From positions 1 through 35,493 of IMG/VR virus record IMGVR_UViG_3300021061_000041: a DNA stretch of 35,493 nt, one strand, 5' to 3'. Below the pieces are notes generated by a model that was given only the letters and a program-made list of their open reading frames with translations, had not been told where the DNA came from and made no database searches. Positions 13,713 through 32,524 of the stretch are shown piece by piece (positions within the stretch are counted from its first letter, which is position 1; each line of letters starts with the position of its first letter). Both the position numbers and the translations under genes were made by a program. This stretch comes from a virus.

Positions 13713-15394
13713 TGCGTCCTCACGATGCGGGCGTCGAGGATGCCGAGGTCCACGGCGCGCTTCACTTGGAACGCCGTCGCCTGCGTCAGCACGTCATCGC
13801 TGCCGGCGGTGTTCACGTTGAGTTGCACCACGAGGGGCCGATCGCCGCCTGCCGCGTCTCTTCCACCGCGCCCGAAGTCGCCGCCGTTGCGGTCGACGTC
13901 GCCGCGGCCTTCCCGGGCCCGGCGCGCTGCGTCGCGCTCGCCGCGAAGGGCTCTACTCTCGTCCGCCGTCGCGCCGCGCGTCTGACCCAGCGCGTATGCC
14001 GCCGTGCCAGCGCTGCCGGCGATCGCAGCGAACTTGCCCGCCGCCGCGAAGTGCAGGCCTGCAGACGGCACGTTGCCGAGCGCCAGCGCCGCCAGTCCCT
14101 TCGCGGTTTCGATCGTGGCCTCGATGCCAGCCTCGATGGCACGCGCGGCGAGCGTCGCCTGTACCTTCTTCGCGATCGCGTTGGCGTACTCGGCTGCGTT
14201 CTGCCGGTCGGCCTTCGTCTGGTTGCGCGACGCGGTCGTGAACTGCACGAATGCGGACGTGCCCTCCTCGACGAGTGCATGGTGCGCGGACGCGCCGACC
14301 TCATCCATCGCGGCCGTGAAGCCCTGCGCCATCTCGAACGTGGAGTCGTTGAACAACGTCGACTGGTCGACCCACCAGCCGACGAACTCGCCGAGTGCGG
14401 CTCGGCGCTCCTCGATGATCGCGAGTTCCTTCGTGGCGAGGCTTCGCTGACCCTCCGCTTCCATCTCGCGCATCGCCTGCTGCACGCCGGCGAGCACCTG
14501 CGCCGCCGTTGCCGTGCGCTGGATGCGTTCGCGTGTCGCCGCCTCGGCCTCCTCCTGCACCGCCCACGCGTTCTCGAAGAGGTCGGTGATGTTCTCCATC
14601 AGCAATGCGTGCTGCTGGGCGGCCTGCCGCGCGCGCTCCAAGGCGCCGCTGTCCACGATCGTCGTGGCGTTCTTCACGCCGGCGGGGCGCACCGGACCCG
14701 CGCCGGCCTGACCCGTCTGCGCGTTGCTGAACTCGAACTTGAGATCGCGAACCTTCGCGATGGTGTCGTCGAGGCCCGTCGAAAGCGACTTGAGGTCGCC
14801 GGCCATGCCGGCGAACAGCAGACCCGCCTTGCCTGCGCCGCCGAGCGGCCCGGGCAGCGTGGAGGCCACGGCCGCGGCCTTGAGGACCCCCGCGCTCGTG
14901 AACACCTCAGCCGCCCGTGCGAGGCCGCTCGTGAAGGCGTCGAGCAACTGCAGGCCTTGCACGACCATCGTGCGCATCGCCGGGAGCACCGCGTTCTGAA
15001 TCACATTGCGGAAGCCCTGGCCCTCGACGCTCACACCGCTCAGGCCCTCGGCCAGCGCGTTGAACAACTGCGACGTCCCCTCGTAGAAGGACGTCAGCGC
15101 GCCGCTCTGGTTGATGATCCCGCCGAAGGCGGTCTCCGCGTTCTTCGCGGCGGTCGCCATCGTGTCGAACTCGATCGTGTTGCCGGCCGCCGCGTTGCTG
15201 GCGTCTACGAACGCACGCGCGGTGCCGCCGATGACGTTCGACAGGCCGCGCCACGCGACCATCCCGAGTTGCACGGCGCCGTTGAGCTCCGCGAAGCCGG
15301 TACGCAGCGTCTTGAGGTTGTCGCGGATCTCCTTGAGGACTCCGCTCGCCTCATCGCGCGCGCGTACGGCCATGCCTACGGTCGCGGTCGACAT
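13709..15394 (-). CDS. Tail tape measure protein
   Basis: A 561-residue product from ATG 15392-15394. It starts with the usual tape-measure N-terminus (MSTATVGMAVRARDEASGVL, KEIRDNLKTLRTGFAELNGA). Hydrophobic Ala/Gly-rich segments follow (VASTLPGPLGGAGKAGLLFA; LHFAAAGKFAAIAGSAGTAA) and long helices (RARQAAQQHALLMENITDLF ... EEAEAATRERIQRTATAAQV). The C-terminus is charged. It lies just after the two tail-chaperone frames, the canonical order. By the rule of thumb of 0.15 nm per residue the tail would be about 85 nm long. No lytic domain seen. Confidence 0.85.
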   Translation of the reverse strand: MSTATVGMAVRARDEASGVLKEIRDNLKTLRTGFAELNGAVQLGMVAWRGLSNVIGGTARAFVDASNAAAGNTIEFDTMATAAKNAETAFGGIINQSGALTSFYEGTSQLFNALAEGLSGVSVEGQGFRNVIQNAVLPAMRTMVVQGLQLLDAFTSGLARAAEVFTSAGVLKAAAVASTLPGPLGGAGKAGLLFAGMAGDLKSLSTGLDDTIAKVRDLKFEFSNAQTGQAGAGPVRPAGVKNATTIVDSGALERARQAAQQHALLMENITDLFENAWAVQEEAEAATRERIQRTATAAQVLAGVQQAMREMEAEGQRSLATKELAIIEERRAALGEFVGWWVDQSTLFNDSTFEMAQGFTAAMDEVGASAHHALVEEGTSAFVQFTTASRNQTKADRQNAAEYANAIAKKVQATLAARAIEAGIEATIETAKGLAALALGNVPSAGLHFAAAGKFAAIAGSAGTAAYALGQTRGATADESRALRGERDAARRAREGRGDVDRNGGDFGRGGRDAAGGDRPLVVQLNVNTAGSDDVLTQATAFQVKRAVDLGILDARIVRTQ

Positions 15395-15403
15395 TCAGCT
15401 ACC

Positions 15404-15808
15404 TCAGCCTGCGGCGCGCTTCGCCTCGAGCGCCTTGCGCCACTTGTCGGTCATCGCGGCGTTCACCGAGCGGCGCAGGCGCAGCACATCGACCACCCAG
15501 GCCGGCTGAGCCCACAGGCCGCCCGGCAGCGGCAACGCGCCCGTGTCCTCGATGTCCGCCGCGAGCGTCAGCGCCTCGGCGACGAATGGGTTGTAGTCGT
15601 CGGTGTCCGCATTCAGCAGTGCTTTCGGGCAGCGGTCGCGGGGCTGCAGCGTGTCGTCGTAGTCCGACGTGAAGCGCACGGTCGGCGCCGGCCGCCGACA
15701 ACCCAGCATCACGCGGCGGTCCTCGCCGCAGCGCCGGCAGTCGTACTGCGGCGGTGCCGTGGTGGTGCTGATGCCGCTCCAAAACGCCGCCTCCGCTGCC
15801 CAGATCAC
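15404..15808 (-). CDS. Tail assembly chaperone, second frame (T-like)
   Basis: A 134-residue product if started at GTG 15806-15808 (GTGA overlap with the upstream gene). The segment CRRCGEDRRVMLGCRRP is a metal-binding-type Cys cluster. The C-terminal half (YNPFVAEALTLAADIEDTGA, SVNAAMTDKWRKALEAKR) is helical. It sits between the first chaperone and the tape measure, as the downstream part of a G/GT pair. The frame is -1 relative to the upstream gene and is open upstream of the GTG across a GGGGG run, so it may be made as a fusion by -1 frameshifting. Confidence 0.7.
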   Translation of the reverse strand: MIWAAEAAFWSGISTTTAPPQYDCRRCGEDRRVMLGCRRPAPTVRFTSDYDDTLQPRDRCPKALLNADTDDYNPFVAEALTLAADIEDTGALPLPGGLWAQPAWVVDVLRLRRSVNAAMTDKWRKALEAKRAAG

Positions 15809-16302
15809 AAAGGGCGGGCGGCCCCCAGGCCGGCGCAGTGCGCGAGCACGAAGTCGAACGCCTTGCCCGTGAACGTGGGTCCAAGTCGCACGAGGAGGTC
15901 GAGGCGCTCCGTTTCGTCAGCGGGCCACGTCAGGATCTCGCCGTCGCTCACGAGCCCTTCGGCCTTCACGACGAGGGCCGCGACCGTGCGCGCCGCGAAG
16001 TTGTTGAACTCGACGATTGCGCGCGTGGCGTCGGCAGACTGCGCAGGCGCGGCCGCGGCTCCGTCCGTAGCGGACTCCTGCGCGCCGCTCTCTGCTGCGT
16101 GCACGACTTGCTCGAGGCGCCGCGCCAGCTCCGCGTTGCGGTCGCTGAACTCACTGCGCTCGCCGTGCGTCATCGGCCGGAACACGAGCGCCGCCTGCGT
16201 CGGCGCGGCGCCCTCGCTCGCGATGATGTTGAAGGTGAACCGCATCGCCTGCGGCGTGATGCGGATCGTCAGCGGTGCCGCCGCGGTCTGCGTCTCTCCC
16301 AT
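15805..16302 (-). CDS. Tail assembly chaperone, first frame (G-like)
   Basis: A 165-residue product, RBS AGGGAGGATGAG just upstream of ATG 16300-16302. The N-terminus binds as a beta sheet (PLTIRITPQAMRFTFNIIAS) and the remainder is helical with an Ala-rich linker (ELARRLEQVVHAAESGAQES). The C-terminal part (EGLVSDGEILTWPADETERL, LGPTFTGKAFDFVLAHC) resembles chaperones that lie between tail tube and tape measure. The last codons include CTG GGG GCC, a possible slip site for -1 frameshifting into the next ORF. Confidence 0.7.
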   Translation of the reverse strand: MGETQTAAAPLTIRITPQAMRFTFNIIASEGAAPTQAALVFRPMTHGERSEFSDRNAELARRLEQVVHAAESGAQESATDGAAAAPAQSADATRAIVEFNNFAARTVAALVVKAEGLVSDGEILTWPADETERLDLLVRLGPTFTGKAFDFVLAHCAGLGAARPL

Positions 16303-16324
16303 CTCATCCTCCCTTCGTGCGTCA

Positions 16325-17752
16325 TCAGGTGAACAGCAGCGAGAACGTCGAGGTGCCGTCGCCGTTGTTCAGCGCGTACGTGACCTCGTAGTGCGCGATC
16401 CCGTTCGCCACCGTCTTCTTCGGGCGCGCCGCCACGTAGGCCGAGGTCAGCGTGAGCTGCGTCGTGTTGTTGTCCGCGGTGCCGACCGACAACGTGATGT
16501 TGCGCGCCGTGCCGTCCTCGAAGTCGTCCTCGGGATCGAAGGTCGCCGTCGCCTCCGTCTCGATGTTCAGCGTCAGCCGTGGCGCGCGGTCGACGATCAC
16601 GTACTTCTGCGCGCCGAAGCCATTGACGAGGTTCCAGCCCTGCGTGAGCAGCGGCTGCGTCGTGTACGTCGTGAACGCCGTGACGATCGCGCGTACCCAG
16701 TAGGCCGTGATGCTGTTGAGCGTCGTCGTGGCCCAGTCGGACGGGCGGCCCCACTCGTTGAAGTACGTGCCAGCCGTCTGCTGAAAGTTCGTGATGCCTT
16801 GGCGCCCGAAGGTGCTCAGGGTCGTCCACGACGAGCCGTTCCAATACTGCCATGTGACGGTGTGCGTGCCCGCGCCGGCCGTGCCGAGCGTGAGCTTCAC
16901 GCCGTCGAACGGGTGGCGCGAACCGAACGCGATGTAGTCGTTGAGATTCGTGCCGCCAGTGTTCGACGTGAACACGATGACGTCGCCCACGTCGGTGTCG
17001 TTGATGTCCGTCGTCTCGTTGACGAACGTCGTCGCGCTGTCGTCGTAGGTCAGGCAGCGGTAGACCGGCAGTTGCAGCAGCGCGATCTGCTGCTGCGGCT
17101 GCACGTCGTTGCCGAGGTCGAACGAGAACCCCGTGCATACCGGGCTCGTCCACGACCCGATTTCCAACGTCATCCGGTCGACCACCGGAGGCGCGATGAA
17201 GTCCTCCGAGAACGACGTGCCCGAGATCGCGTCCGACACGGCCGGGCGATAGACGCCCTTCATGCCGAACGTCATCTTCGACGGTTCGCCCGGACTGCCC
17301 GCCCACGTCATGTTGCCGGCGGCGCCGAACGTCTGCATCCAGAGCGGGCCGTGCGTCGACTCGATCGTGCACGTCTCGAGCGAGCCGCCCGTCTGCGGCG
17401 CGTACGTGCGCGTCCCCGCGGCCTGCGTCACCGACAGACCGCACGCGCGCAGAAGCGCATCGGCGCCGCGATCGTCCCAGTCCGTGTCGTCCGTGCCGCC
17501 CACGGCGGACGTGACGAAGTGGACGGGCCACACGATGCTCGCGCTGTAGCTGCCGTTGCCGCTTGCGAGCGGGCGCAGTTCGCCCATCGACGCGCGCGGG
17601 TAGCCCTTGCGGTCGACCGCGCCGCCCTCCGGGTTCATCTCCCACGACTCGCAGAGGAGCGAGTGCGCCTCCAGCGTCAGCGCCGCGGGCTGGCCCGAGG
17701 TCGACTCGATGCCGACTGCGATGCTCTCTTCGGTGCGGATGTTGATCGACAC
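16325..17752 (-). CDS. Major tail tube protein with inserted Ig-like domain
   Basis: A 475-residue product from GTG 17750-17752. The N-terminus (INIRTEESIAVGIESTSGQP) and the pattern of strands (GELRPLASGNGSYSASIVWP, FGAAGNMTWAGSPGEPSKMT, KGVYRPAVSDAISGTSFSED) are those of phage tail tube proteins. At about residues 245-365 it carries an inserted beta-sandwich (THTVTWQYWNGSSWTTLSTF, FQQTAGTYFNEWGRPSDWAT, ITAYWVRAIVTAFTTY) that would decorate the outside of the tail. A related domain is in the fibre gene. No tail sheath gene accompanies it, which is the basis for calling this a siphovirus. Confidence 0.78.
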   Translation of the reverse strand: MSINIRTEESIAVGIESTSGQPAALTLEAHSLLCESWEMNPEGGAVDRKGYPRASMGELRPLASGNGSYSASIVWPVHFVTSAVGGTDDTDWDDRGADALLRACGLSVTQAAGTRTYAPQTGGSLETCTIESTHGPLWMQTFGAAGNMTWAGSPGEPSKMTFGMKGVYRPAVSDAISGTSFSEDFIAPPVVDRMTLEIGSWTSPVCTGFSFDLGNDVQPQQQIALLQLPVYRCLTYDDSATTFVNETTDINDTDVGDVIVFTSNTGGTNLNDYIAFGSRHPFDGVKLTLGTAGAGTHTVTWQYWNGSSWTTLSTFGRQGITNFQQTAGTYFNEWGRPSDWATTTLNSITAYWVRAIVTAFTTYTTQPLLTQGWNLVNGFGAQKYVIVDRAPRLTLNIETEATATFDPEDDFEDGTARNITLSVGTADNNTTQLTLTSAYVAARPKKTVANGIAHYEVTYALNNGDGTSTFSLLFT

Positions 17753-17755
17753 GGC

Positions 17756-17938
17756 TCAGCACTCCTCGTCGTCTGCGGGAAGGGTCAGCGCTTCGGGCGG
17801 CGGCTTCTCGCCGGGCTCGAGGCACACGATCTCGAGGTCGATCGCGACCGTGGCCGAGCGCTCGCCCGGCCGCGGCGTTGGCGTCACGGAGGGCCGCGCG
17901 CGAGGCGCGGGATAACTGCGGCGTCCGTCGCTACTCAT
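17756..17938 (-). CDS. Small protein before the tail tube
   Basis: A 60-residue product from ATG 17936-17938. Basic, Pro-rich N-terminus (RRSYPAPRARPSVTPTPRP) and an acidic C-terminus (ATVAIDLEIVCLEPGEKPPP to DDEEC). It overlaps its upstream neighbour by 8 bp and ends 3 bp before the tail-tube start, so it is in the operon. Family and function unknown. Confidence 0.6.
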   Translation of the reverse strand: MSSDGRRSYPAPRARPSVTPTPRPGERSATVAIDLEIVCLEPGEKPPPEALTLPADDEEC

Positions 17939-18473
17939 AGGTCGTGATCACCGCCGTCACGCGCTCGGAGCAGCGGAAGCGCGACGTGACGAGCTTGACG
18001 AAGCCCCCGGTCTGCGGCGGAGAGATGCCACCGTCCTCGTCGCCCAGCCAGTCGACGTCGAACATCTGCCCGGTGTTGACCGCGGCGCTGTCCGTGCGCC
18101 CGTTCGTCAGCAGCGCGTGCGTCACCGCCGTCTGCGTGCGCCACGCAGCACGCGCCAGCCGCGCCGGGTCCGCGTTCATCACGTACACGTCGATCGCGAG
18201 CACGTGCGCCACGTCGCGAACGCCGGTGCCCGGCGACGCATAGCGCTTGACCTCCGATGTCTCGTGCCGCACCACGAGGCAGGGATAGCCCGCGCGCGAC
18301 ACGCTATTCGGTAACGCCTCGACGAACATGCGCGCCGAAGGCACCGTCGCCACCTCGTCCGTCGTGAGGTCGGGCAGGTTCGCGGGCGTCGTCGGCGTCT
18401 GGAGCTTGGCGATCTCCGTCGCGAGGTGCGTGCCGAGCGTGTCGATCACGCGCTGGATCACCTGCTCTCTCAT
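17931..18473 (-). CDS. Tail terminator/completion-like protein
   Basis: A 180-residue product from ATG 18471-18473 (ATGA overlap). A helical start (REQVIQRVIDTLGTHLATEI) is followed by a beta core (NSVSRAGYPCLVVRHETSEV, VLAIDVYVMNADPARLARAA, GGFVKLVTSRFRCSERVTAV). This fits minor tail and tail-terminator proteins that close the tail at the head side. It lies between the gpG-like morphogenesis gene and the tail tube, the usual place. The call rests on order and fold type, not on a recognised motif. Confidence 0.65.
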   Translation of the reverse strand: MREQVIQRVIDTLGTHLATEIAKLQTPTTPANLPDLTTDEVATVPSARMFVEALPNSVSRAGYPCLVVRHETSEVKRYASPGTGVRDVAHVLAIDVYVMNADPARLARAAWRTQTAVTHALLTNGRTDSAAVNTGQMFDVDWLGDEDGGISPPQTGGFVKLVTSRFRCSERVTAVITTYE

Positions 18474-19096
18474 GCGGCGAAGACCCTGCGCAACTGGTCA
18501 TGCGACGGACTGCGCCGTGCCGCTGCGATGCCGATGTGCGCTTCGATCCACGCCTGGTAGACGCGCACGATCTTGCGTGCCGCGATCGACAGCGGGCCGA
18601 CGATGGGCCGGCGCGGCACGGGGATGCCGTCCCATCGCTGGTAGCCGCCGCCGTGCTGGTGTTGCGCCGCGTACGGCAGCGACGTGCCCCAATCGAAGCC
18701 GGTGCGCGTGTTGATCCAGACGTGCGCCGGGTCGTTCAGGAACGCGAACGAGGGCCCGAGCCGTTCGCGGTCGGTCCACGGCGACGACTGCGCGCCCGTC
18801 GTCCAGCGCAGGACGGCCATGTTGCGGCGCGGCTGCGGGGTGCCACGGGGGCGGTCGCCGAAGAGGATGCCGCGCTTGTACCCGCGGTAATTCGGTTCGT
18901 CGTCGTAGCCCTTCCACTTCGGGCCGCTCACGAACATCGGCCGCCCGCGCATGAACGCGTGGTAGGCCTCCTTGTTCAACTCGTCGTGGATCGCCTCGTG
19001 CGGCTTGCGCGGATCGGTCACCGCATCGATCGCGAGCCCGAGGATCGCGTCGAACTCCTCCACGCCGTCGAGGCTGAAATTGAGGCGCGCCACCAT
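18470..19096 (-). CDS. Virion morphogenesis protein, Mu gpG-like
   Basis: A 208-residue product from ATG 19094-19096, sharing one base with the upstream stop (TGATG). The segment LGPSFAFLNDPAHVWINTRT, then FDWGTSLPYAAQHQHGGG and IPVPRRPIVGPLSIAARK, contains the characteristic YA-xxHQ-x-GG...R-P signature of the Mu gpG/HK97 gp10-like head-tail or tail-completion family. Upstream is a basic stretch (KWKGYDDEPNYRGYKRGILF). It acts in joining head and tail. Good confidence in the family, less in which partner it touches. Confidence 0.78.
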   Translation of the reverse strand: MVARLNFSLDGVEEFDAILGLAIDAVTDPRKPHEAIHDELNKEAYHAFMRGRPMFVSGPKWKGYDDEPNYRGYKRGILFGDRPRGTPQPRRNMAVLRWTTGAQSSPWTDRERLGPSFAFLNDPAHVWINTRTGFDWGTSLPYAAQHQHGGGYQRWDGIPVPRRPIVGPLSIAARKIVRVYQAWIEAHIGIAAARRSPSHDQLRRVFAA

Positions 19097-19581
19097 CAGG
19101 ACACCTGCGACCACGTACTGAGGGTGATCGGCGGGTCGTCGTCGTCGCCGCCGTCTTGCAGGCTCGCGGGGATGCCCGGCGCGGACTCCTGCGCGTTCGT
19201 CACGGCGCCGAAGTTGACGGTCCCCTCCTCGATGCGCCGCAGCCACGCGCGGAACTGCTCGCCGTACTGCTCGATCGAGTCGCCGCCGTTCTGCGCCGCC
19301 CCGGCCGCGAGCTCCTGCCCGACGAGGTACGCAGCGCCGAGGCCGTTGATGATCGACGCGAGGCGCAGGCCTGAGGTGTCCGCCGCGATGGCCGCCGTCG
19401 TGAGCCCGCGATTGAGCAGCAGGCCCTGCATCATCGCGAAGGCGTCGGTGATCGCAGCTTCCACGCGCGCGGTCGTGATCGGCGAACCCGGCGCGTCGAG
19501 GTGCGCGTTCAGGTTCGGGAAATACCGCGTCATCAGGTTCGCGGCGGAGAGGAATCCGTCGACCCCTAGTGAAATCGCCAC
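19096..19581 (-). CDS. Head-tail connector-like protein, unknown
   Basis: A 161-residue product from GTG 19579-19581. The N-terminal half (SLGVDGFLSAANLMTRYFPN, PITTARVEAAITDAFAMMQG) is mostly helical with an acidic tail (DGGDDDDPPITL). Length and order (directly before the gpG-like gene) suit the small helical adaptor that sits on the portal ring, but I see no diagnostic motif. It lies 2 bp after the amidase stop, in the same transcript. Confidence 0.6.
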   Translation of the reverse strand: MAISLGVDGFLSAANLMTRYFPNLNAHLDAPGSPITTARVEAAITDAFAMMQGLLLNRGLTTAAIAADTSGLRLASIINGLGAAYLVGQELAAGAAQNGGDSIEQYGEQFRAWLRRIEEGTVNFGAVTNAQESAPGIPASLQDGGDDDDPPITLSTWSQVS

Positions 19582-19583
19582 GG

Positions 19584-20210
19584 CTACGCCACCTCCGCGA
19601 GCCGCACGCCTTCGGCGTAGCAGTGCCGCACCACGCCCTTCGCGAGCGCGATCCCCACCGCCTGCTGCCACGCCTCATCGCGCATCTGTGCCGCGTCGGC
19701 GGGGTGATCGATGAAGCCGATCTCGACGAGCGCCGCCGCGCAGTTCGTGCGCCGCAGCACGTACAGGTCGCTGCGCTGGAAGAGGCCTGGCTGCCGCGGG
19801 AGCGAACCGCCCCACGGCATCACGCGGACCTCGCGCCGCAGCGCATCGAGCAGCACGCCCGCGAGGTGCGCGCCCTCGGTGTCGTTGCGGTAGTACATCG
19901 CCTGAGAACCGCGCGCCTTGCCCTTCCACGGGGAGAGCACGGGCGTCGCGTTGCAATGAACCGACACGAACAGCTTTCGCGTCTCCGGCCCGTGCCCGTT
20001 CGCGAGGTTCACGCGCTGCGCGAGCGTCACGTCCTCGTCGCGCGTCCGCGTCGGGAGCACGTAGCGCACGTGCGGCAGCACCGCGTCGGCGAAGTGCTGC
20101 GCCACGGCGAGGTTGATGTCGCACTCGCGCAGGCCGTGCCCACACGCCCCCGAGTCGCGCCCGCCGTGGCCCGGGTCGATCACGAGGCCGATGTCGAGGC
20201 GGGCGGTCAC
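19584..20210 (-). CDS. N-acetylmuramoyl-L-alanine amidase (endolysin)
   Basis: A 208-residue product from GTG 20208-20210 (GTGA overlap). It is a single Amidase_3 domain: VIDPGHGGRDSG with His15, GLRECDINLA with Glu29, FVSVHCNA with His85 as zinc ligands, and ALVEIGFIDHP with Glu163 as the catalytic acid. It cuts the amide bond between N-acetylmuramic acid and L-alanine of peptidoglycan. No signal peptide or wall-binding domain is visible, so release needs a holin, and the membrane proteins just upstream (20503-21309) are the candidates. The family is solid; the lysis cassette lies unusually between head and tail genes. Confidence 0.92.
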   Translation of the reverse strand: MTARLDIGLVIDPGHGGRDSGACGHGLRECDINLAVAQHFADAVLPHVRYVLPTRTRDEDVTLAQRVNLANGHGPETRKLFVSVHCNATPVLSPWKGKARGSQAMYYRNDTEGAHLAGVLLDALRREVRVMPWGGSLPRQPGLFQRSDLYVLRRTNCAAALVEIGFIDHPADAAQMRDEAWQQAVGIALAKGVVRHCYAEGVRLAEVA

Positions 20211-20506
20211 GCCTGCGGCCTCGCCTGTCCCGCCTGCCGGCGCAGGTCGCAGCCGTTCGCGTCCGGCACCGGGCAACGGCAAGAGGTGCGCGCGCCCAGA
20301 GGCGGCTGGAGCAGCCGGCAGTAGTCGAGGTTCACCCGGTAGTGCCGCTCCGGCTTGGGCGCCGCTACCTCGTCGCTCCACCCGAGCAGGTCGACTAGCT
20401 TGCGTACCGCCTGCAAGCCCTCGCGTACCTCGCGCACGACCGCCGGCGCCTCGCGCAGCACGGCACGTGCGGTCGCGATGGCGCGGAGCAGGGATAGAGG
20501 GCTCAC
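20207..20506 (-). CDS. Small lysis-region protein, unknown
   Basis: A 99-residue product from GTG 20504-20506 (GTGA overlap with the membrane protein upstream; its own stop overlaps the amidase GTG). A helical N-terminus (LSLLRAIATARAVLREAPAV, VREVREGLQAVRKLVDLLGW) could lie on the membrane as an amphipathic helix or coiled coil. The C-terminus has Cys pairs (LDYCRLLQPP, SCRCPVPDANGCDLRRQ). A helper of the lysis system, or an inner-membrane-spanin analogue, is possible, but there is no clear transmembrane span. Confidence 0.6.
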   Translation of the reverse strand: MSPLSLLRAIATARAVLREAPAVVREVREGLQAVRKLVDLLGWSDEVAAPKPERHYRVNLDYCRLLQPPLGARTSCRCPVPDANGCDLRRQAGQARPQA

Positions 20507-21000
20507 TGCCCCTCCGACTGAGACGCCGCCGCGCCGGGGGCCTGAGCGGGAGGGGTGCCCGGCGCAGCCGACGCGGCGGCGAAGTTGCGGCGCCCCATCA
20601 CGAGGTCGCGCACCGGTTCGAACAGCACCGCCCACGCCCCGCCTGCGGCGAGGCCGTTGAGCGCACTGCGCCAGAACGCGACGTCGATCGGCTTGCCGAG
20701 GTAGAGCGCGCTCGACAGGCCCGCGCCCACGCTGATGAGCATCGGCGCCCAGCGCACGAGCAGGTAGGTCGCGCGCGGGTAGCGCTCCGCGAGTTCACGC
20801 GCCTTCGCGGGATGCGCGAGCAGCCACCGCGCGCCCATGACGACGCACGTCACGCCGATCGCGAGCAGCACGCGCGCATCGCGGTCCACCGCCGCACGCC
20901 ACAGCGCGAGCGCGAACGCCGTAGGGTCTGCGGCCGGGTCGAGGATCGAGGCAGGCGTCGCGAGCTGCGCGATCAGGATGTCCGCGATCTCGAAGCCCAC
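20503..21000 (-). CDS. Multi-span membrane protein, holin candidate
   Basis: A 165-residue product from GTG 20998-21000, with GGGGGGATGAGCGC upstream. Three hydrophobic segments: RVLLAIGVTCVVMGARWLLA, VRWAPMLISVGAGLSSALYL and ALNGLAAGGAWAVLFEP. A Pro/Ala-rich hydrophilic tail follows. Membrane protein with about three spans, one small gene away from the amidase, so the best holin candidate. The tail is longer than in classical holins. No holin family recognised. Confidence 0.68.
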   Translation of the reverse strand: MGFEIADILIAQLATPASILDPAADPTAFALALWRAAVDRDARVLLAIGVTCVVMGARWLLAHPAKARELAERYPRATYLLVRWAPMLISVGAGLSSALYLGKPIDVAFWRSALNGLAAGGAWAVLFEPVRDLVMGRRNFAAASAAPGTPPAQAPGAAASQSEGQ

Positions 21001-21004
21001 GCGC

Positions 21005-21073
21005 TCATCCCCCCAGCGCCGCGGCGAGCCCGAGCAGGCCCCGCACGAACAGCGCGAGCGCCAGCGCGATCAC
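21005..21073 (-). CDS. 22-residue hydrophobic peptide
   Basis: A short ORF from GTG 21071-21073, in a GTGA overlap with the upstream stop; its own stop lies 4 bp before the holin candidate's start. The peptide (VIALALALFVRGLLGLAAAL-GG) is just one transmembrane segment. It may be a real micro-protein of the lysis region, or only a device that couples translation. Low confidence because so short. Confidence 0.4.
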   Translation of the reverse strand: MIALALALFVRGLLGLAAALGG

Positions 21074-21309
21074 GAGTCGTCCTCGAAACGCAGCGTCGCG
21101 CGCAGTCGAATCGGCGCCGAGAACGAGCCGTCGTCCGCCTCGATCTGCGCGATCACTTCCAGCTTCGCGGGCAGCGCCAGCGGGCCACCCTTCGGCCGGC
21201 TGCGACGCCGCCACCACGAGACCACCTGCGATGCCGCGACCGCCGCCGCGCCAAGCACCAGCACCGCGTTCGCGGCCAGCGTCGCGAGGCTGTTCACATC
21301 GTTCTGCAA
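21070..21309 (-). CDS. Single-span membrane protein of the lysis region
   Basis: A 79-residue product from TTG 21307-21309 (GTG 21297 is an alternative). One clear transmembrane segment (LATLAANAVLVLGAAAVAAS) is followed by a basic cluster (WWRRRSRPKGG) and a small beta-type tail (AKLEVIAQIEADDGSFSAPI). N-out/C-in by the positive-inside rule. Could be an antiholin or a spanin-like component; position only two genes upstream of the amidase supports a lysis role. Confidence 0.6.
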   Translation of the reverse strand: MQNDVNSLATLAANAVLVLGAAAVAASQVVSWWRRRSRPKGGPLALPAKLEVIAQIEADDGSFSAPIRLRATLRFEDDS

Positions 21310-21328: not shown

Positions 21329-21640
21329 TCAGCCGATGGACTCGACGAACACGAAGCAGTGCTCGCGCGGCCCGTCCATGTTCTCGGGCCACTTCGGCGC
21401 GATCACCACCGTGTACTCGTCCGCCCCCGGCCCCGCGCGCACCGCGCCCAGCGTCTCGTCGTGCAGCTCGGTGTAGTAGTCGACGCCCTCGAGCGGCGCG
21501 CGCTGGCGCACCACCACGCGCACCGCCGCGAGGTCCAGCATGGACGCGCACGGGAAAGCGCCGGTCCACGCCCAGGGTACCTCCGATCCTTCCGGGGGGC
21601 GGGTCAGCGTCACGTCGTTGAAGCGCGCGAGCAGGGCCAT
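21329..21640 (-). CDS. Small hypothetical protein
   Basis: A 103-residue product from ATG 21638-21640, starting 3 bp after the upstream stop. Beta-rich: LARFNDVTLTRPPEGSEVPW, LAAVRVVVRQRAPLEGVDYY, ADEYTVVIAPKWPENMDGPR, then HCFVFVESIG. No family recognised. It lies between the exported Cys-rich protein and the lysis genes. Confidence 0.65.
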   Translation of the reverse strand: MALLARFNDVTLTRPPEGSEVPWAWTGAFPCASMLDLAAVRVVVRQRAPLEGVDYYTELHDETLGAVRAGPGADEYTVVIAPKWPENMDGPREHCFVFVESIG

Positions 21641-21643
21641 GCG

Positions 21644-22528
21644 TCACTCTCCGGTGGTGCACTGGTAGGCGTAGGTGCGCGCTGAGTCGTCGACCGACCC
21701 GCCGCTGTAGGTGCGAAACGTCACCGTGATCGCGCCGGCGCCGGCGTCGGCGCCCGCGATCGCGAGGTCGTCGTGCATCGCACCGGGTCCCATGACCGTG
21801 CAGGTGTAGGCCGTGGTGAGCCCGGTCACGCTGCAGGTCTGCGTCCCCGGCGTCGATGACACGCTCGGCGGGTCCATCGAGCACGTGCCACGAAGCGGCG
21901 TGGTGCTCGCGGGGCACACGGTCGTGGTGCCGATCGCGCCGCCGAAGACGTTGCGCCACGCGTACGAGTTGTCGGTGTCGTCCACCGCGCAGATACAGAT
22001 GCGCGTGTCACGCACCGTGTCGCTGTACGGGAGGTGCGCGATCGTGCCCTGGAGCGTCTCGGCGCACGTGGCCAGCGACGCCTCCTGCGTGAGCAGGATG
22101 CCGTAGCGGCTGATCGACATGCCCGAACTGCCGTCCGGCCGATGGAAGTCGAGCGTCGTGTACGCGCTCGCCGCGTCGTCCGCCGACGCGTAGATGCCCC
22201 ACGTCGCCGCCGTGCTCGCGCTGCCGTTCCAGTAGTGCGCGACGAACTGGAGTTTTCCGCTCGACTGCTCCTGCGTGCCGGAGGACGCCGCGGGACCGAG
22301 GATCTTCGCGACCACCGTCTCCGCCGTCGTGGCCGTCAGCGACACCGCGAGCGCTGCGCCCGAGTAGCTGAGCTGGCACGTCGCGCACAGCGTGACGTTC
22401 GCGTTGAACGTGGTGGCGACGCCGACCGTGGACGGCGGTCCCCCGAGCCCATCGCCGTCGCTGAACTGCGCAGCCGCCGACGCGGGCGCGAGCATCGCGG
22501 CCACGATGACCGCGGCGCGCCGCATCAC
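21644..22528 (-). CDS. Exported Cys-rich protein in the structural operon
   Basis: A 294-residue product from ATG 22526-22528 (ATGA overlap). The N-terminus MMRRAAVIVAAMLAPASAAA, then QFSDGDG, is a textbook Sec signal peptide with AxA cleavage site. The mature part is beta-rich with about a dozen Cys in pairs (LCATCQLSY, LATCAETLQG, TRICICAVDD, TQTCSVTGLTTAYTC). The segment with ICICAVDDTDNSYAWRNVFG resembles a module seen in fibre-like phage proteins. A virion protein would not need secretion and would not form disulfides in the cytosol, so this looks like an envelope or extracellular factor. Function unknown. Confidence 0.72.
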   Translation of the reverse strand: MMRRAAVIVAAMLAPASAAAQFSDGDGLGGPPSTVGVATTFNANVTLCATCQLSYSGAALAVSLTATTAETVVAKILGPAASSGTQEQSSGKLQFVAHYWNGSASTAATWGIYASADDAASAYTTLDFHRPDGSSGMSISRYGILLTQEASLATCAETLQGTIAHLPYSDTVRDTRICICAVDDTDNSYAWRNVFGGAIGTTTVCPASTTPLRGTCSMDPPSVSSTPGTQTCSVTGLTTAYTCTVMGPGAMHDDLAIAGADAGAGAITVTFRTYSGGSVDDSARTYAYQCTTGE

Positions 22529-22956
22529 AGCGACCCCTTGAACTCGCTGACCTTGAGGCTCACGGTGCCCGACGACGACAACGCCTTCACCGTGATGCCG
22601 TCATCGAGTCGCTCGCACCACTGCTGGCCGCCTGTGAGCGCGACGAGGTGCGCGGTCGCGCTCGGCGCGCCCGTCGAGATGTACAGCGTCGCCGTCACGT
22701 CGGGCAGCAGGTAGAGGCATAGGCGCGCCCGGCCCGTCAGTGCCGACGACACCACTGCCGTGCCGCCCACCGTCGTCGGGATGTTGGTCTGCGTCTCCCT
22801 CACGCCCTGGTAGCCGAGCGAGTAGATCTCGGCGGCGCGGATCTCGATCGCGGACGCGGCCCACGCCAGCGGCACGGACGCGAACGCGCACACGAGCACC
22901 GCGGTGAGCGCAGCGCGCGCGATATGCTCGCCGACCTTGCGCAGTCCCTGCAGCAT
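22525..22956 (-). CDS. Exported small beta-rich protein
   Basis: A 143-residue product from ATG 22954-22956. A basic start (MLQGLRKVGEHIARAALTAV) leads to a hydrophobic core and AxA site (LVCAFASVPLAWAAS), a likely Sec signal peptide. The mature part is beta-rich (GTAVVSSALTGRARLCLYLL, PDVTATLYISTGAPSATAHL, DGITVKALSSSGTVSLKVSE), like a small fibre-knob or sandwich. It lies between two other proteins with Sec-type N-termini, directly downstream of the capsid genes. Function unknown. Confidence 0.7.
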   Translation of the reverse strand: MLQGLRKVGEHIARAALTAVLVCAFASVPLAWAASAIEIRAAEIYSLGYQGVRETQTNIPTTVGGTAVVSSALTGRARLCLYLLPDVTATLYISTGAPSATAHLVALTGGQQWCERLDDGITVKALSSSGTVSLKVSEFKGSL

Positions 22957-22963
22957 CGGCGCC

Positions 22964-23989
22964 TCAGTCCGTGTGCGAGTACGGGATGTAGAGTTGGCAG
23001 CCGGCGATCGTCGCGGGGTCAGCCGACGCGTTGAAGTAGAAAGCCGTGGCCGCCGCGATCGTGTTCGCTGCCAGAGTCGTCGTGCGCTGCGGCGCGTTGG
23101 CGCCCGAGTTGAGGTTCAGCGCCGACGAGATCGCGCTGCCGCCGCCGTTCGCCGCCGTGCGCAGCGTCGCCGTCAGAGGGCCGCCCTCCAGCGTCGCGCA
23201 CGTCGCCACGACGTCGTGAAGGATGACGGCATGCGTCGCGGGCGTGGTCAGGATGACGTCGTTATTGGCGCCGAAGTCCGCCGCGGCGAAGTTCAGGCGC
23301 ATCGCCATCAGCGGCACCGCGCGCAGGGTCGACGCCGTGTTGGCGAGGCCCTCCAGCTTGAGCACCGACACCGCGCCGTTGGCGAGGTCGCCTGTCGCGA
23401 TCGTCGCGTCGAGGATCTCGGTGCTGTCCACCGCGCCCGCCGGCATGGCGATCTCCCCCGTGCCCGTGCCGTCGACCGTGAACGTCACGCTTGTCACGTC
23501 TGCCGAGCCGACCGTGATCGCGTTCGCGCCGCCCGCGTCGTAGGTGCAGGCGCCCGTGCACGAGAACGTCGTCGAGGCCGTCGCCGCCGTGTCGAGCAGC
23601 ACCGTGCCCGTCGTCGCCGGCACCGTGACGGTCTTGTCGCTCGAGGCCGGGTCGCCGAACGTGACGAGCAGTTCGATGGCGTCGGCCGTCGCGCCTTCGC
23701 AGATGAAGCCGGTCGTCGAGAAGTAGCATTCACTCGCGGCGTACGCGGGGTTGCCAGCGAGCGTCGCGGAGTTGTTGATGTCGCCGACCGCCACCGTGTC
23801 GTCGAGGATCTCCGCCGACGCCACCGCACTGGTTGCGAGTTGGTCGGCGGTGATCGTGCCGGTCATGATCTTGGCGCCGTTCAGGCGCTCGCCCACCGCC
23901 TCGGCGAGCCCGGGCACGAGCGCCAGCGTGAGCACGATCGCGGCGATGAAGATGCCGAGTACGGCAGCGGTCCTGCGAATGAGCCTCAC
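22964..23989 (-). CDS. Membrane-anchored or exported fibre-like protein
   Basis: A 341-residue product from GTG 23987-23989 (GTGA overlap). The N-terminus has basic residues and a hydrophobic segment (RLIRRTAAVLGIFIAAIVLT, then LALVPGLAEA), a signal peptide or anchor. Then come fibre-type modules: ITADQLATSAVASAEILDDT, AVGDINNSATL, and a second copy TEILDATIATGDLANGAVSV. A beta-rich middle carries Cys (STTFSCTGACTYDAGG). The C-terminal knob ends CQLYIPYSHTD. Fibre-like repeats behind a Sec-type signal are unusual in a virion operon. Head fibre, or surface protein of the infected cell, are the alternatives. Confidence 0.7.
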   Translation of the reverse strand: MRLIRRTAAVLGIFIAAIVLTLALVPGLAEAVGERLNGAKIMTGTITADQLATSAVASAEILDDTVAVGDINNSATLAGNPAYAASECYFSTTGFICEGATADAIELLVTFGDPASSDKTVTVPATTGTVLLDTAATASTTFSCTGACTYDAGGANAITVGSADVTSVTFTVDGTGTGEIAMPAGAVDSTEILDATIATGDLANGAVSVLKLEGLANTASTLRAVPLMAMRLNFAAADFGANNDVILTTPATHAVILHDVVATCATLEGGPLTATLRTAANGGGSAISSALNLNSGANAPQRTTTLAANTIAAATAFYFNASADPATIAGCQLYIPYSHTD

Positions 23990-24393
23990 GATGCGAACTC
24001 CTTGCGCCAGCGGTAGAAGTCGGGCGGCGCGATGCGGCGCTCGGACAGCCACGCACGAAGGCCCATTGCGGGCGCCTCTGCGACCAGCCGGCGCCGCTCG
24101 TCGTCGGTGAAGGACCGGACCCCTGCGCCGGCCTGCGTGTCGGGCGCGGCATTGCTGCCGCTGTGCTCGGTGGCGTCGCTCGACACGCTGGCGTCGGTGC
24201 GCTCTGGCGCGGCGCACGGGTCCGAGGGGGCAAAGGGCGCGCCGCGGCGCGGCGCGAGCAGCGCATCAACGGCGCCCGGGAAGCGGCGGTCCAGCACCCA
24301 TCGCGGAATGCCGCGACGCAGAGCGCTCTGAATGACCACCGCGAGCCCGGGGTTACGCAGGAACGCCGGGCCTCTATCCGGCGCCGCGCTCAT
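23986..24393 (-). CDS. Hypothetical protein after the capsid gene
   Basis: A 135-residue product from ATG 24391-24393 (one-base TGATG overlap with the capsid stop). N-terminal helical part (FLRNPGLAVVIQSALRRGIP, RWVLDRRFPGAVDALLAPRR), a Ser/Ala-rich linker, and a C-terminal helical domain (SFTDDERRRLVAEAPAMGLR, AWLSERRIAPPDFYRWRKEF) that looks like a small HTH. No family recognised. A virion accessory or adaptor role is suggested only by place. Confidence 0.6.
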   Translation of the reverse strand: MSAAPDRGPAFLRNPGLAVVIQSALRRGIPRWVLDRRFPGAVDALLAPRRGAPFAPSDPCAAPERTDASVSSDATEHSGSNAAPDTQAGAGVRSFTDDERRRLVAEAPAMGLRAWLSERRIAPPDFYRWRKEFAS

Positions 24394-25373
24394 CAGGTGA
24401 TGACGTTCTGCCAGAAGAAGCCGAGTTCGGCCGCGACGAGCTCGAAGTCGAGGTCGATGTCGGCCTCCACGTAGAACGAGCCCTCGAGCAGTCCGTCGTC
24501 CGTGTAGGTGCGGGTGTAGAGCGGCTTGTTCACGAACGTGCACGCCGCCGTCGGCTTCTGGAGGTCGAACGGCGCGGGGTTCACGTGCAGCACGAGGAAG
24601 CCGTCGCCGACGATGTCCGCGCGCGTCTCGCTGCCGGCGCCCTCGCGCGAGGTCACCTTGTTGGCGTTCGAGACGTAGATCGCGTCGAGACCGAGCTTCG
24701 CGGCGACCTGCTCGCGGCTGTTGAACAGCGCGTTCTTGGCGATGTCGCCCTGCGCGTTCGCGACACCGCCCCAGTCGACGAGCTCCGGGTGCATCTCGAG
24801 GTGAGAGAACGCCGTGGCGCCGCAGATGCCGATGAGGTGCATCGGCTCACGGCCGAGCACGGCGCGGATCGCGTCGCGCGCCTGCCGGATGTCCGCACGC
24901 GGCGAGCCCGCGAGCGTCGCGTTCCAGCCCGTCGAGGGCGTCGAGTCGCTGCCCGTTGCGGTCCAGACGCCGGTGGTGAAGAACTCCGTGGCCCACCGGT
25001 CCTCCATGATGCGCAGCACCATGTTGGCTTCGGCCGCCGAGTAGAGCGCCTTGGCATCGTAGATGCCGCCTGCGCTCGCGACCTCGTCCGCCGTCACGAG
25101 GTGGCGCGAACTGATGTGCTCGCACGCGTAGGTGTCGGTGCCGAGGCCGTACTCCGTGCCCTTCGCGTAGCCGTCCGCCGCGCGCCGGCCATCATGCTGG
25201 ATGCGCTGCATGTCGGCCCGCGTGAACACGTAGTAACTGCCCTCGCGCTTGCCCTGCGTCGGGCGCGTCGGGAACGCCTCCATCGACACGACGCTGCCGA
25301 GGTCGAGGGCGTAGCCCTGCGCGCCCTGGCTGATGGCGTTCTTGACGAAACTGCCCTGGTGGATCTTGGCCAT
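24393..25373 (-). CDS. Major capsid protein
   Basis: A 326-residue product from ATG 25371-25373, with TGAGGACC upstream. No signal peptide. The sequence (SFVKNAISQGAQGYALDLGS, GKREGSYYVFTRADMQRIQH, YACEHISSRHLVTADEVASA, MVLRIMEDRWATEFFTTGVW, PMHLIGICGATAFSHLEMHP, TYTDDGLLEGSFYVEADIDL) matches the HK97-fold capsid proteins that follow DUF2190-like decoration proteins in phage operons. It comes after protease/scaffold and decoration genes, the normal order. It should build the icosahedral shell after removal of the scaffold. Confidence 0.85.
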   Translation of the reverse strand: MAKIHQGSFVKNAISQGAQGYALDLGSVVSMEAFPTRPTQGKREGSYYVFTRADMQRIQHDGRRAADGYAKGTEYGLGTDTYACEHISSRHLVTADEVASAGGIYDAKALYSAAEANMVLRIMEDRWATEFFTTGVWTATGSDSTPSTGWNATLAGSPRADIRQARDAIRAVLGREPMHLIGICGATAFSHLEMHPELVDWGGVANAQGDIAKNALFNSREQVAAKLGLDAIYVSNANKVTSREGAGSETRADIVGDGFLVLHVNPAPFDLQKPTAACTFVNKPLYTRTYTDDGLLEGSFYVEADIDLDFELVAAELGFFWQNVIT

Positions 25374-25388: not shown

Positions 25389-25799
25389 TCAGCTCGCGCG
25401 CTGCGCGAAGTTGCCGAGTTGGCACGAGAAGAACTCGCCACTCGCCGCGGCCTCGATCGCGGTGCCCACGAGGCGATCCGCATCCGCCGTCTTTGCGACG
25501 AGGGTGCCGTCGCTGTGCGTGCCGACGAGATCGCCGATCGCGATCGTCCCGCCCGCGAGGCACTTGACCGTCGCGCCGGTTCCCAGCGGCACGACCTCGA
25601 CCGTCAGGCCGCTGGTCGCCGTGCCGCTGGCGTTCTTCCAGACGACGCCGAGCACCACGTCGGTCGTCGCGTTGCAGACGGTGACCCGGCCCTCGGTCGC
25701 GCTGAGCTCGACGCACTTGCCCCGCGCCGCGCTCAGGTCCGCGCCGACCTCCCACGCGCGGATGTCGCTGGGATCTACCTGTACTCCGTGTGCCGGCAT
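25389..25799 (-). CDS. Capsid decoration protein, DUF2190-like
   Basis: A 136-residue product from ATG 25797-25799. The pattern GADLSAARGKCVELSATEGR, then GTIAIGDLVGTHSDGTLVAK and ADRLVGTAIEAAASGEFFSC, is that of DUF2190-type head decoration proteins (paired beta domains, GD-x-VG and GxAxEAAxxGE signatures). These sit on the outside of the capsid and stabilise it. It lies between the protease/scaffold and the capsid gene, as in related phages. Confidence 0.82.
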   Translation of the reverse strand: MPAHGVQVDPSDIRAWEVGADLSAARGKCVELSATEGRVTVCNATTDVVLGVVWKNASGTATSGLTVEVVPLGTGATVKCLAGGTIAIGDLVGTHSDGTLVAKTADADRLVGTAIEAAASGEFFSCQLGNFAQRAS

Positions 25800-31159: not shown

Positions 31160-32524
31160 TCAGAACCTCCCCGGCGCGAGGATGTCCGCCCCGGGCGCCG
31201 AGGCTGCCGCGGCGAAGTGCGGCGCCATCGCGGCGGCGTCCGTCCGTCCGCCCGTCACGATCAGGTCGGTCAGCGCCCACACCAGCGCATCGAGCCGATC
31301 CGGCGACCGCTGCCCCGTCCCCGGCGACCATGTGCACAACTGGTCTTCGAGCTGCGCCAGCGCGTGCCCGACGTGGTGGACGCGCCCTTGCTCATACAGC
31401 GCCGATACCGGCTCGGCTCGCGTGGCCTTGCCGCGGCTCGCGTGGACTCGGCGCACCGGCACCGCCCGATCGACCATCCGCAGCGTGTGCTCGGCCATGT
31501 CGCCGCCTTGGTTGACCTCAATCACGATGCGGTCGCAGGCGTGCTCCCGATACGCCGCAATGGCACGCCGCGCCCACTCGCTCGGCGCGTACCGCCCACT
31601 GCGGTCGTCGATGACGTAGCCGTGCCCGTCCTTGCCGACGCCCGCCACGATGATGCCCGTCTCGTCGCTTTCAGCGCCAGCCGTCACCGCCGGGTCGATG
31701 GCGACCACGACGCGCACCAGCGGCGGACACGTTGCCACGCGGCACGCGTCGATCATCGCCTGCGACCACAGCGCGCCCTCGATGTCCTCCAGCACTTCGG
31801 CGTTGAGCTCCTGCCGGCCGAGGCGCGTGCCCTCGTAGCGCCTCAGCGTCACCTCGAGGAAGGCCGGCGCGAGGTTCGCCGCGTTCTCGTACGTGGTCGA
31901 CCTCGTGACCGCCGTCGCCTTGTGCGCCGCGAGCCCCTTCACGAGCGCGGTGGGGCGCGGCGTCGTCGTCACGACCACGCGCGGATCGTCGCCGAGGCGC
32001 AGGCCCATCAGCAGCATGTCCCATGCCTCGGGCCGTCGCCACGCCGCGAGTTCATCACCCCACGCCGCATCGTGCTGCGGGCCGCGCAGGCGGTCGGGCT
32101 CGTCGGCGCTGTACAGCGTCGCGATGGCACCGTTGGACCACGTCACGCGCCGCAGGCTCGGGTTGTACGTCGGCCGATCCCACGGCGGCGAGCACGCGAG
32201 GATGCCGCTGTCGCCCTCGACCATCACGTCTCGCGCGTCGGCGGCGGTCGGCGCCACGAGCGCGATGCGGCGCTTGCCGCTGTCCTTCTGCTCGCGCACC
32301 CACTCCGCACCAGCGCGCGTCTTCCCCGCGCCGCGACCGCCCAGGTACATCCACGTCCGCCACTCCCCCGCGGGCGCCAACTGCGCGGGCCGCGCTAGGC
32401 GCCTCCAGTCGTAGGCGGCGCGCTCCTCCTCGCTCGGCCCGGTGTCCTGCTCCGCCCGCCCCTCCGCCAACTCCTTCAGCGTCGGCGCGCGGTCAAACCA
32501 AGGCGTGAGGGCGCGGAGGATCAC
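31160..32524 (-). CDS. terL: Terminase large subunit
   Basis: A 454-residue product from GTG 32522-32524 (GTGA). ATPase: Walker A GGRGAGKT (62-69), Walker B-type HDAAWGDELAAW (151-162, with Asp157-Glu158), coupling motif TTTPRP (186-191). Nuclease (RNase H-like): AIDPAV (Asp277), VIEVNQGGD (Glu336) and RLDALVWAL (Asp around 417). It cuts concatemeric DNA and powers packaging through the portal. Slightly short but complete. It is separated from the portal by the 191-bp repeat region. A small terminase is not obvious; the triple-HTH protein and the 198-residue protein at 34704 are candidates. Confidence 0.95.
   Translation of the reverse strand: MILRALTPWFDRAPTLKELAEGRAEQDTGPSEEERAAYDWRRLARPAQLAPAGEWRTWMYLGGRGAGKTRAGAEWVREQKDSGKRRIALVAPTAADARDVMVEGDSGILACSPPWDRPTYNPSLRRVTWSNGAIATLYSADEPDRLRGPQHDAAWGDELAAWRRPEAWDMLLMGLRLGDDPRVVVTTTPRPTALVKGLAAHKATAVTRSTTYENAANLAPAFLEVTLRRYEGTRLGRQELNAEVLEDIEGALWSQAMIDACRVATCPPLVRVVVAIDPAVTAGAESDETGIIVAGVGKDGHGYVIDDRSGRYAPSEWARRAIAAYREHACDRIVIEVNQGGDMAEHTLRMVDRAVPVRRVHASRGKATRAEPVSALYEQGRVHHVGHALAQLEDQLCTWSPGTGQRSPDRLDALVWALTDLIVTGGRTDAAAMAPHFAAAASAPGADILAPGRF

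Follow-up and report, generated by a model that had tools for sequence, protein, structure and literature searches.

Three consecutive late genes with predicted Sec signals, two of them encoding virion-type domains, in a phage head operon

Particle assembly in tailed phages is normally treated as a cytosolic process. The described systems nearest to the locus considered here, three consecutive genes that we call P1, P2 and P3, are those of the cultured Myxococcus phages Mx8 and Mx9. In these phages, signal-bearing genes for fibre-type proteins (p64 and p66 in Mx8, p14 and p15 in Mx9) form a row immediately ahead of holin-like and endolysin genes, as P1–P3 do. Mx8 p64 and Mx9 p14, the latter annotated as 'putative tail fiber protein', share 79% identity and have identical signals, and Mx8 p66 has a Cys motif in common with P3. 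Unlike P1–P3, the Mx8 and Mx9 genes are not beside a capsid gene, and neither phage has a direct homologue of P1 or P2. The Mx8 record, which may be incomplete, lists p45, p48, p49, p56 and p57 as virion proteins and does not list p64 or p66. Mx9 p15 (L326:6467-7192) consists of a signal and a small domain followed by a part that is like Mx8 p67 (L095:38819-39367), an apparent fusion or domain swap. Signals were absent among the sampled Mx4 proteins and likewise from three genes near the capsid gene in the Microcystis phage Mae-JY22.

Other known systems share single features with this locus. The neck fibre gp82 of the Anabaena phage A-1(L) is part of a fibre made of several proteins from one operon (PMC10966104, PDB 8KEG); its outer domain, gp82C, is matched by the profile of a parallel, capsid-adjacent family discussed below, and PMC10966104 makes no mention of signal peptides. 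T4 Spackle (gp61.3) is, like the predicted P1–P3, an exported phage protein: it reaches the periplasm, its signal is cleaved and it binds a virion protein (PMC7650644). It is unlike them in being an inhibitor of the gp5 lysozyme that is thought to exclude superinfection (PMC7650644). The tail fibres of Pelagibacter phages Kolga and HTVC008M carry the EGATAD repeat of P1; unlike P1, about 138 of the 147 distinct ORFs with this module among the matches listed have no signal peptide. In Phage_cement_2 (PF09956), one member of the signal-bearing parallel family scores above the cut-off, whereas the PF09956 protein of our own locus and nine remote relatives of the family lack a signal, and P1–P3 do not match.

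The window, by which we mean the whole stretch of DNA analysed, is an entire virus record of 35,493 bases with about 70% G+C. Its late genes lie on the minus strand in the order terminase, portal, protease, cement, major capsid, P0, P1, P2 and P3, followed by a 103-aa gene, two membrane proteins, an Amidase_3 endolysin and then neck and tail genes. An ORF check found P1–P3 on the minus strand exactly where a preliminary description had placed them. The features around them are as follows.

25389-25799, minus: cement protein without a signal, upstream of the capsid gene (PF09956, 25.6 bits; cut-off 24)
24393-25373, minus: major capsid protein (phrog_1005, E 5e-30)
23986-24393, minus: P0, 135 aa, between the capsid gene and P1, without a signal
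22964-23989, minus: P1, 341 aa; predicted signal 1-31, tail-fibre repeat about 94-131, Cys-containing C-terminal part
22525-22956, minus: P2, 143 aa; predicted signal 1-33, small mature domain with two Cys
21644-22528, minus: P3, 294 aa; predicted signal 1-20, Cys-rich middle, C-terminal domain 214-288
21329-21640, minus: 103-aa gene, no assignment
21070-21309, minus: 79-aa protein with one predicted membrane segment (hydropathy maximum 2.07)
20503-21000, minus: 165-aa membrane protein, holin candidate preceding the endolysin (hydropathy maximum 2.07)
19584-20381, minus: Amidase_3 endolysin (PF01520, 9e-36; phrog_435, 1e-32)
18470-19105, minus: neck/tail completion protein on the far side of the slot (phrog_26, 8e-7)

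The coupled array reported to follow the capsid genes is borne out, with one gene (P0) intervening before P1: the P0–P1, P1–P2 and P2–P3 spacings measure -4, +7 and -4 nt, with a Shine-Dalgarno motif ahead of each start (AAGGAG for P1, GAGG for P2 and AAGGGG for P3). The C-terminal part of P0 resembles, by eye, the helix-turn-helix of transposase OrfA (RRLVAEAPAMGLRAWLSERRIAPPDFYRWRKEF), which is odd for a head operon.

All three proteins begin with the basic and hydrophobic segment previously noted. With a rule-based scorer that considers a basic n-region, an uncharged hydrophobic core and the -3/-1 rule, P1, P2 and P3 score 7.7, 6.2 and 5.6, which makes them the sole strong Sec-signal candidates among the 38 genes of the window (next best, 3.2). 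As background, 21 of 1,797 crude gene calls in related contigs (1.2%) reach 5.3 with a length of at least 100 aa, a score of at least 5 occurs in 0.6% of random internal segments, and three hits in a row among about 38 genes are expected some 6e-5 times (36 x 0.0117^3). An AxA cleavage site had been claimed for two of the proteins, an undercount, as all three carry an AxA-type site: AEA|VGE in P1, AWA|ASA in P2 and AAA|QFS (or ASA|AAQ) in P3. Each thus has the basic n-region, uncharged core and AxA-type c-region of a signal peptidase I substrate, and none has a Cys at its predicted cleavage site, so that the lipobox of a lipoprotein or o-spanin is absent. From these features, export of P1–P3 through Sec is strongly predicted.

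The mature parts of P1–P3 match nothing in Pfam or PHROGs, and hence no virion-protein family, PF09956 included, nor any enzyme domain of the sort that a signal-arrest-release endolysin would carry. Direct comparison is more informative for two of them. P1 carries the EGATAD repeat known from phage tail fibres, EG(A)TAD..E...DP..D.T.T.P..TGT, with a best phmmer value of 4e-19 in a set of 21,246 ORFs; these came from fetched loci, many of which had been chosen for the module. The middle of P3 matches Mx8 p66 at 2e-10 pairwise, though at just 0.08 against the whole phage collection, and its C-terminal domain (214-288) is common to signal-less post-capsid proteins of two contigs, L202 and L231. 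On this homology, we regard the mature parts of P1 and P3 as virion-type. The earlier characterization of the mature parts as fibre-like is borne out by homology in the case of P1 and by the C-terminal domain in the case of P3; for P2 it depends on a beta-rich structure model (N-terminal helix 3-26, then strands) of low confidence (pLDDT 54). The P3 model has a pLDDT of 33. Cys pairs had been singled out in one protein, but Cys enrichment covers the set: the mature parts contain 6 (P1), 2 (P2) and 10 (P3) Cys, amounting to 2.59%, whereas 15 other virion genes average 0.94% (Fisher p = 7e-4).

Foldseek matches of P2 were set aside because of the low pLDDT of its model. No relative of P2 could be demonstrated in homology searches, with 198 genomes scanned, and a kinship to small beta proteins of L197, L202 and Mx9 that had been suspected by eye was unsupported by comparison. 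Exact-peptide searches of IMG/VR returned no close relatives of P1, P3 or the capsid protein. Mx8 itself was the sole match to the P3/p66 domain in IMG/VR and the genome contigs, and none turned up in a scan of 297 genomes from the G004 phylum; an EBPR siphovirus match to p66 was discarded as antisense.

The two contigs with signal-less relatives allow the same head slot to be compared with and without export signals. In L202 and L231, 114-aa proteins matching the P3 C-terminal domain (5e-9 for L231 and 6.5e-9 for L202 against the 21,246 ORFs; 3e-10 pairwise) lie directly after a homologous capsid gene and have no signal. The capsid proteins of the window and L202 are 29% identical (4e-27), and the window cement protein matches its L202 homologue at 4e-7. 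A P1-repeat protein, also without a signal, occupies the same slot there (47% identity over 38 aa, 5e-7, for L202). The P1 and P3 domains thus appear to be virion-slot domains that carry a signal in the window and none in the other lineage.

Signals on fibre-type proteins are found beyond the window. IMG/VR scans were confined to the best 80 loci each, and gene starts on contigs come from a crude gene caller. Among the EGATAD ORFs, the scorer gives a strong signal for eight, and a ninth (L224) was recognized by eye; by contig G+C, those with a signal make up 0 of 117 under 45% and 7 of 9 above 52%. Several of the signal-bearing genes lie directly or one gene downstream of a profile-confirmed capsid gene (in L187, Phage_capsid_4; L191, Phage_capsid_2; and L190). 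A related fibre in L185/L186 starts like an anchor and lacks a cleavage site. Elsewhere, several of the signal-bearing fibres contain little Cys, which weakens a need for disulfides as a general reason for export.

Some of these and other contigs contain longer runs of such genes. In L197 (3333-7579), four consecutive signal-bearing genes of 113, 889, 284 and 116 aa lie downstream of a profile-confirmed capsid/major head gene, the last with a lipobox-like site, and in L195 (15-8208) at least four signal-bearing beta-type proteins surround an SLT-like endolysin and membrane genes. In contigs of low G+C, a small signal-bearing family of about 180 aa lies next to fibre genes but is encoded on the opposite (minus) strand (L120:433-978, L124:290-829, L131:158-706, L133:51-623, L148, L151, L169 and L199). 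In a bacterial genome, a fibre-type protein (L323:634-2430, minus) has a Sec-like signal followed by an N-terminal domain (QQFHDANGNPLNGGKLYTYLAGT...) that looks like the head-binding domain of a tailspike.

A second, parallel family occupies the position next to the capsid gene more strictly. Using the mature N-terminal domain of the L187, L188, L189 and L190 proteins as query, a scan returned 58 loci. A Sec signal is present in each of the 48 close members whose N-terminus is complete (38 of them distinct), and nine remote relatives have none. Within one alignment of 29 members, identity is 19% over the signal region and 57% over the mature region; Ala occupies -1 in 27 of 29 members and Ala or Val -3 in 28 of 29, and the conserved mature start falls right at the cleavage site. 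Low identity in the signal together with retention of the -3 and -1 residues points to selection for the property of being a signal rather than for particular letters. The gene immediately before the family member is a protease-capsid fusion in 32 of 37 distinct loci; on sufficiently long contigs, neck-type genes come next. Some loci have a second small gene of the L188 type, whose start is then hydrophobic and signal-like (8/8, partly by eye).

The family profile matches residues 133-238 of the A-1(L) neck fibre gp82 (within gp82C; PDB 8KEG) at 1.1e-6. The L310 member passes the Phage_cement_2 cut-off (27.9 bits against 24), and 14 of 29 members match PF09956 at E values up to 0.1, so that membership is firm for one and weak for the others. 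Profile comparison showed no homology between the family and the window cement protein; the family therefore represents the same phenomenon in the same slot and not kinship with P1–P3. A host search of 395 + 149 + 297 genomes gave five matches, and the proteins seen were not clear members. The comparison with related phage operons that the preliminary description had called for thus finds export signals recurring in the capsid-adjacent slot. Judged by sequence, a slot between capsid and neck genes that holds a Sec-exported fibre or cement protein would be a feature of a wider phage class, of which the window is one instance.

We propose, with a probability of roughly 45%, that P1–P3 are virion-type fibre or decoration proteins that have acquired Sec signals, are exported and attach to progeny particles after lysis. 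As suggested by the coupled array, P1–P3 would be co-transcribed late with the head genes. They would then pass through Sec and be cleaved by signal peptidase I, a step strongly predicted by sequence, and would fold outside the cytosol, P3 probably with disulfides given its Cys content. The neighbouring lysis genes would free them together with the finished particles, to whose heads, necks or tails they could then attach, and the fibres might change what the particle sticks to. Attachment to progeny is the least certain step; by analogy, it draws on the binding of the parallel family's domains to virions in other phages. Because that domain binds heads or necks elsewhere, and because capsids stay in the cytoplasm until lysis, post-lysis attachment would be the simplest use of an exported copy. 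Several points speak against this proposal: P1–P3 themselves match no virion-protein family, P2 lacks a demonstrable relative, the Mx8 record does not list p64 or p66 among the virion proteins, and dilution of a secreted protein at lysis would make late decoration expensive. The Cys-poor signal-bearing fibres count against disulfide folding as the general purpose of export. The more general notion that some tailed phages export a part of their own virion through Sec and mount it only after lysis is one that we advance tentatively and consider doubtful.

P1–P3 had been taken for a possible envelope or extracellular set as opposed to virion proteins. Export during late growth agrees with that idea; the opposition itself is blurred, because the P1 and P3 domains sit in a virion slot and have signal-less relatives in L202/L231. 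Among the roles suggested, action on particles outside the cell agrees best with the parallel family's homology to cement and neck-fibre proteins. The main rival to post-lysis decoration is masking of surfaces or receptors, in which exported fibre-derived domains would coat the infected cell, block superinfection or cover receptors on debris and so spare the progeny. We judge it possible, if on the unlikely side. Export itself (the signal scores and the 48 of 48 family loci) suits it as well, as do the occurrence of the P1 module in tail fibres and the precedent of T4 Spackle, a phage protein that is exported and binds a component of the virion (PMC7650644). However, the cement/neck-fibre domain of the parallel family binds heads or necks rather than receptors, that family is placed strictly after the capsid gene, and P1–P3 belong to a late virion array and not to an early or lysogenic unit.

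It is improbable that the N-terminal segments are uncleaved membrane anchors or virion-embedding tails that tether the proteins at the inner membrane or particle. The long hydrophobic core of P1 (hydropathy maximum 2.7) and the anchor-like L185/L186 fibre would accord with tethering, but the -3 and -1 residues of the parallel family, and its conserved mature start at the site, are unexpected for an anchor. Exported morons in late operons are established (lambda lom and Gifsy sodC are examples), and a position near lysis genes is permissive for them. That P1–P3 are unrelated lysogenic-conversion or accessory genes that chanced into this operon nonetheless seems slightly less probable still: they stand in a row of three, two of them carry virion-type domains, homologues without a signal fill the same slot in L202/L231, and the parallel family keeps its slot across diverse phages. 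Although the array runs straight into membrane proteins and the Amidase_3 endolysin, a role as spanin, antiholin or signal-arrest-release lysis proteins is very improbable, as P1–P3 have no lipobox, C-terminal membrane segment or enzyme domain, and their sizes and fibre homology are a poor fit.

That a family next to the capsid gene is conserved and strictly retains its export signal would imply either completion of the virion outside the cell or the use of capsid and fibre domains as extracellular tools. The window ties this question to three genes in one operon, and Mx8 and Mx9, whose Myxococcus host is a laboratory organism, open it to direct testing. Open-access literature on signal peptides of virion, fibre, decoration or cement proteins in tailed phages, and on Mx phage virion proteins, yielded no account of this class, a scope that makes the absence weak evidence of novelty for exported virion-type proteins.

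The terminase (31160-32524) shares 45-58% identity with terminases of phages whose head genes are unrelated, among them phages of Microcystis, Brevundimonas and Arthrobacter, which indicates that it has moved between phage groups; in the best 80 loci with terminase relatives, it travels alone, and homologues of P1–P3 are absent. Long plus-strand ORFs of up to 1393 aa (e.g. 13766-17947) run antisense to the tail genes and are most likely a by-product of the G+C content.
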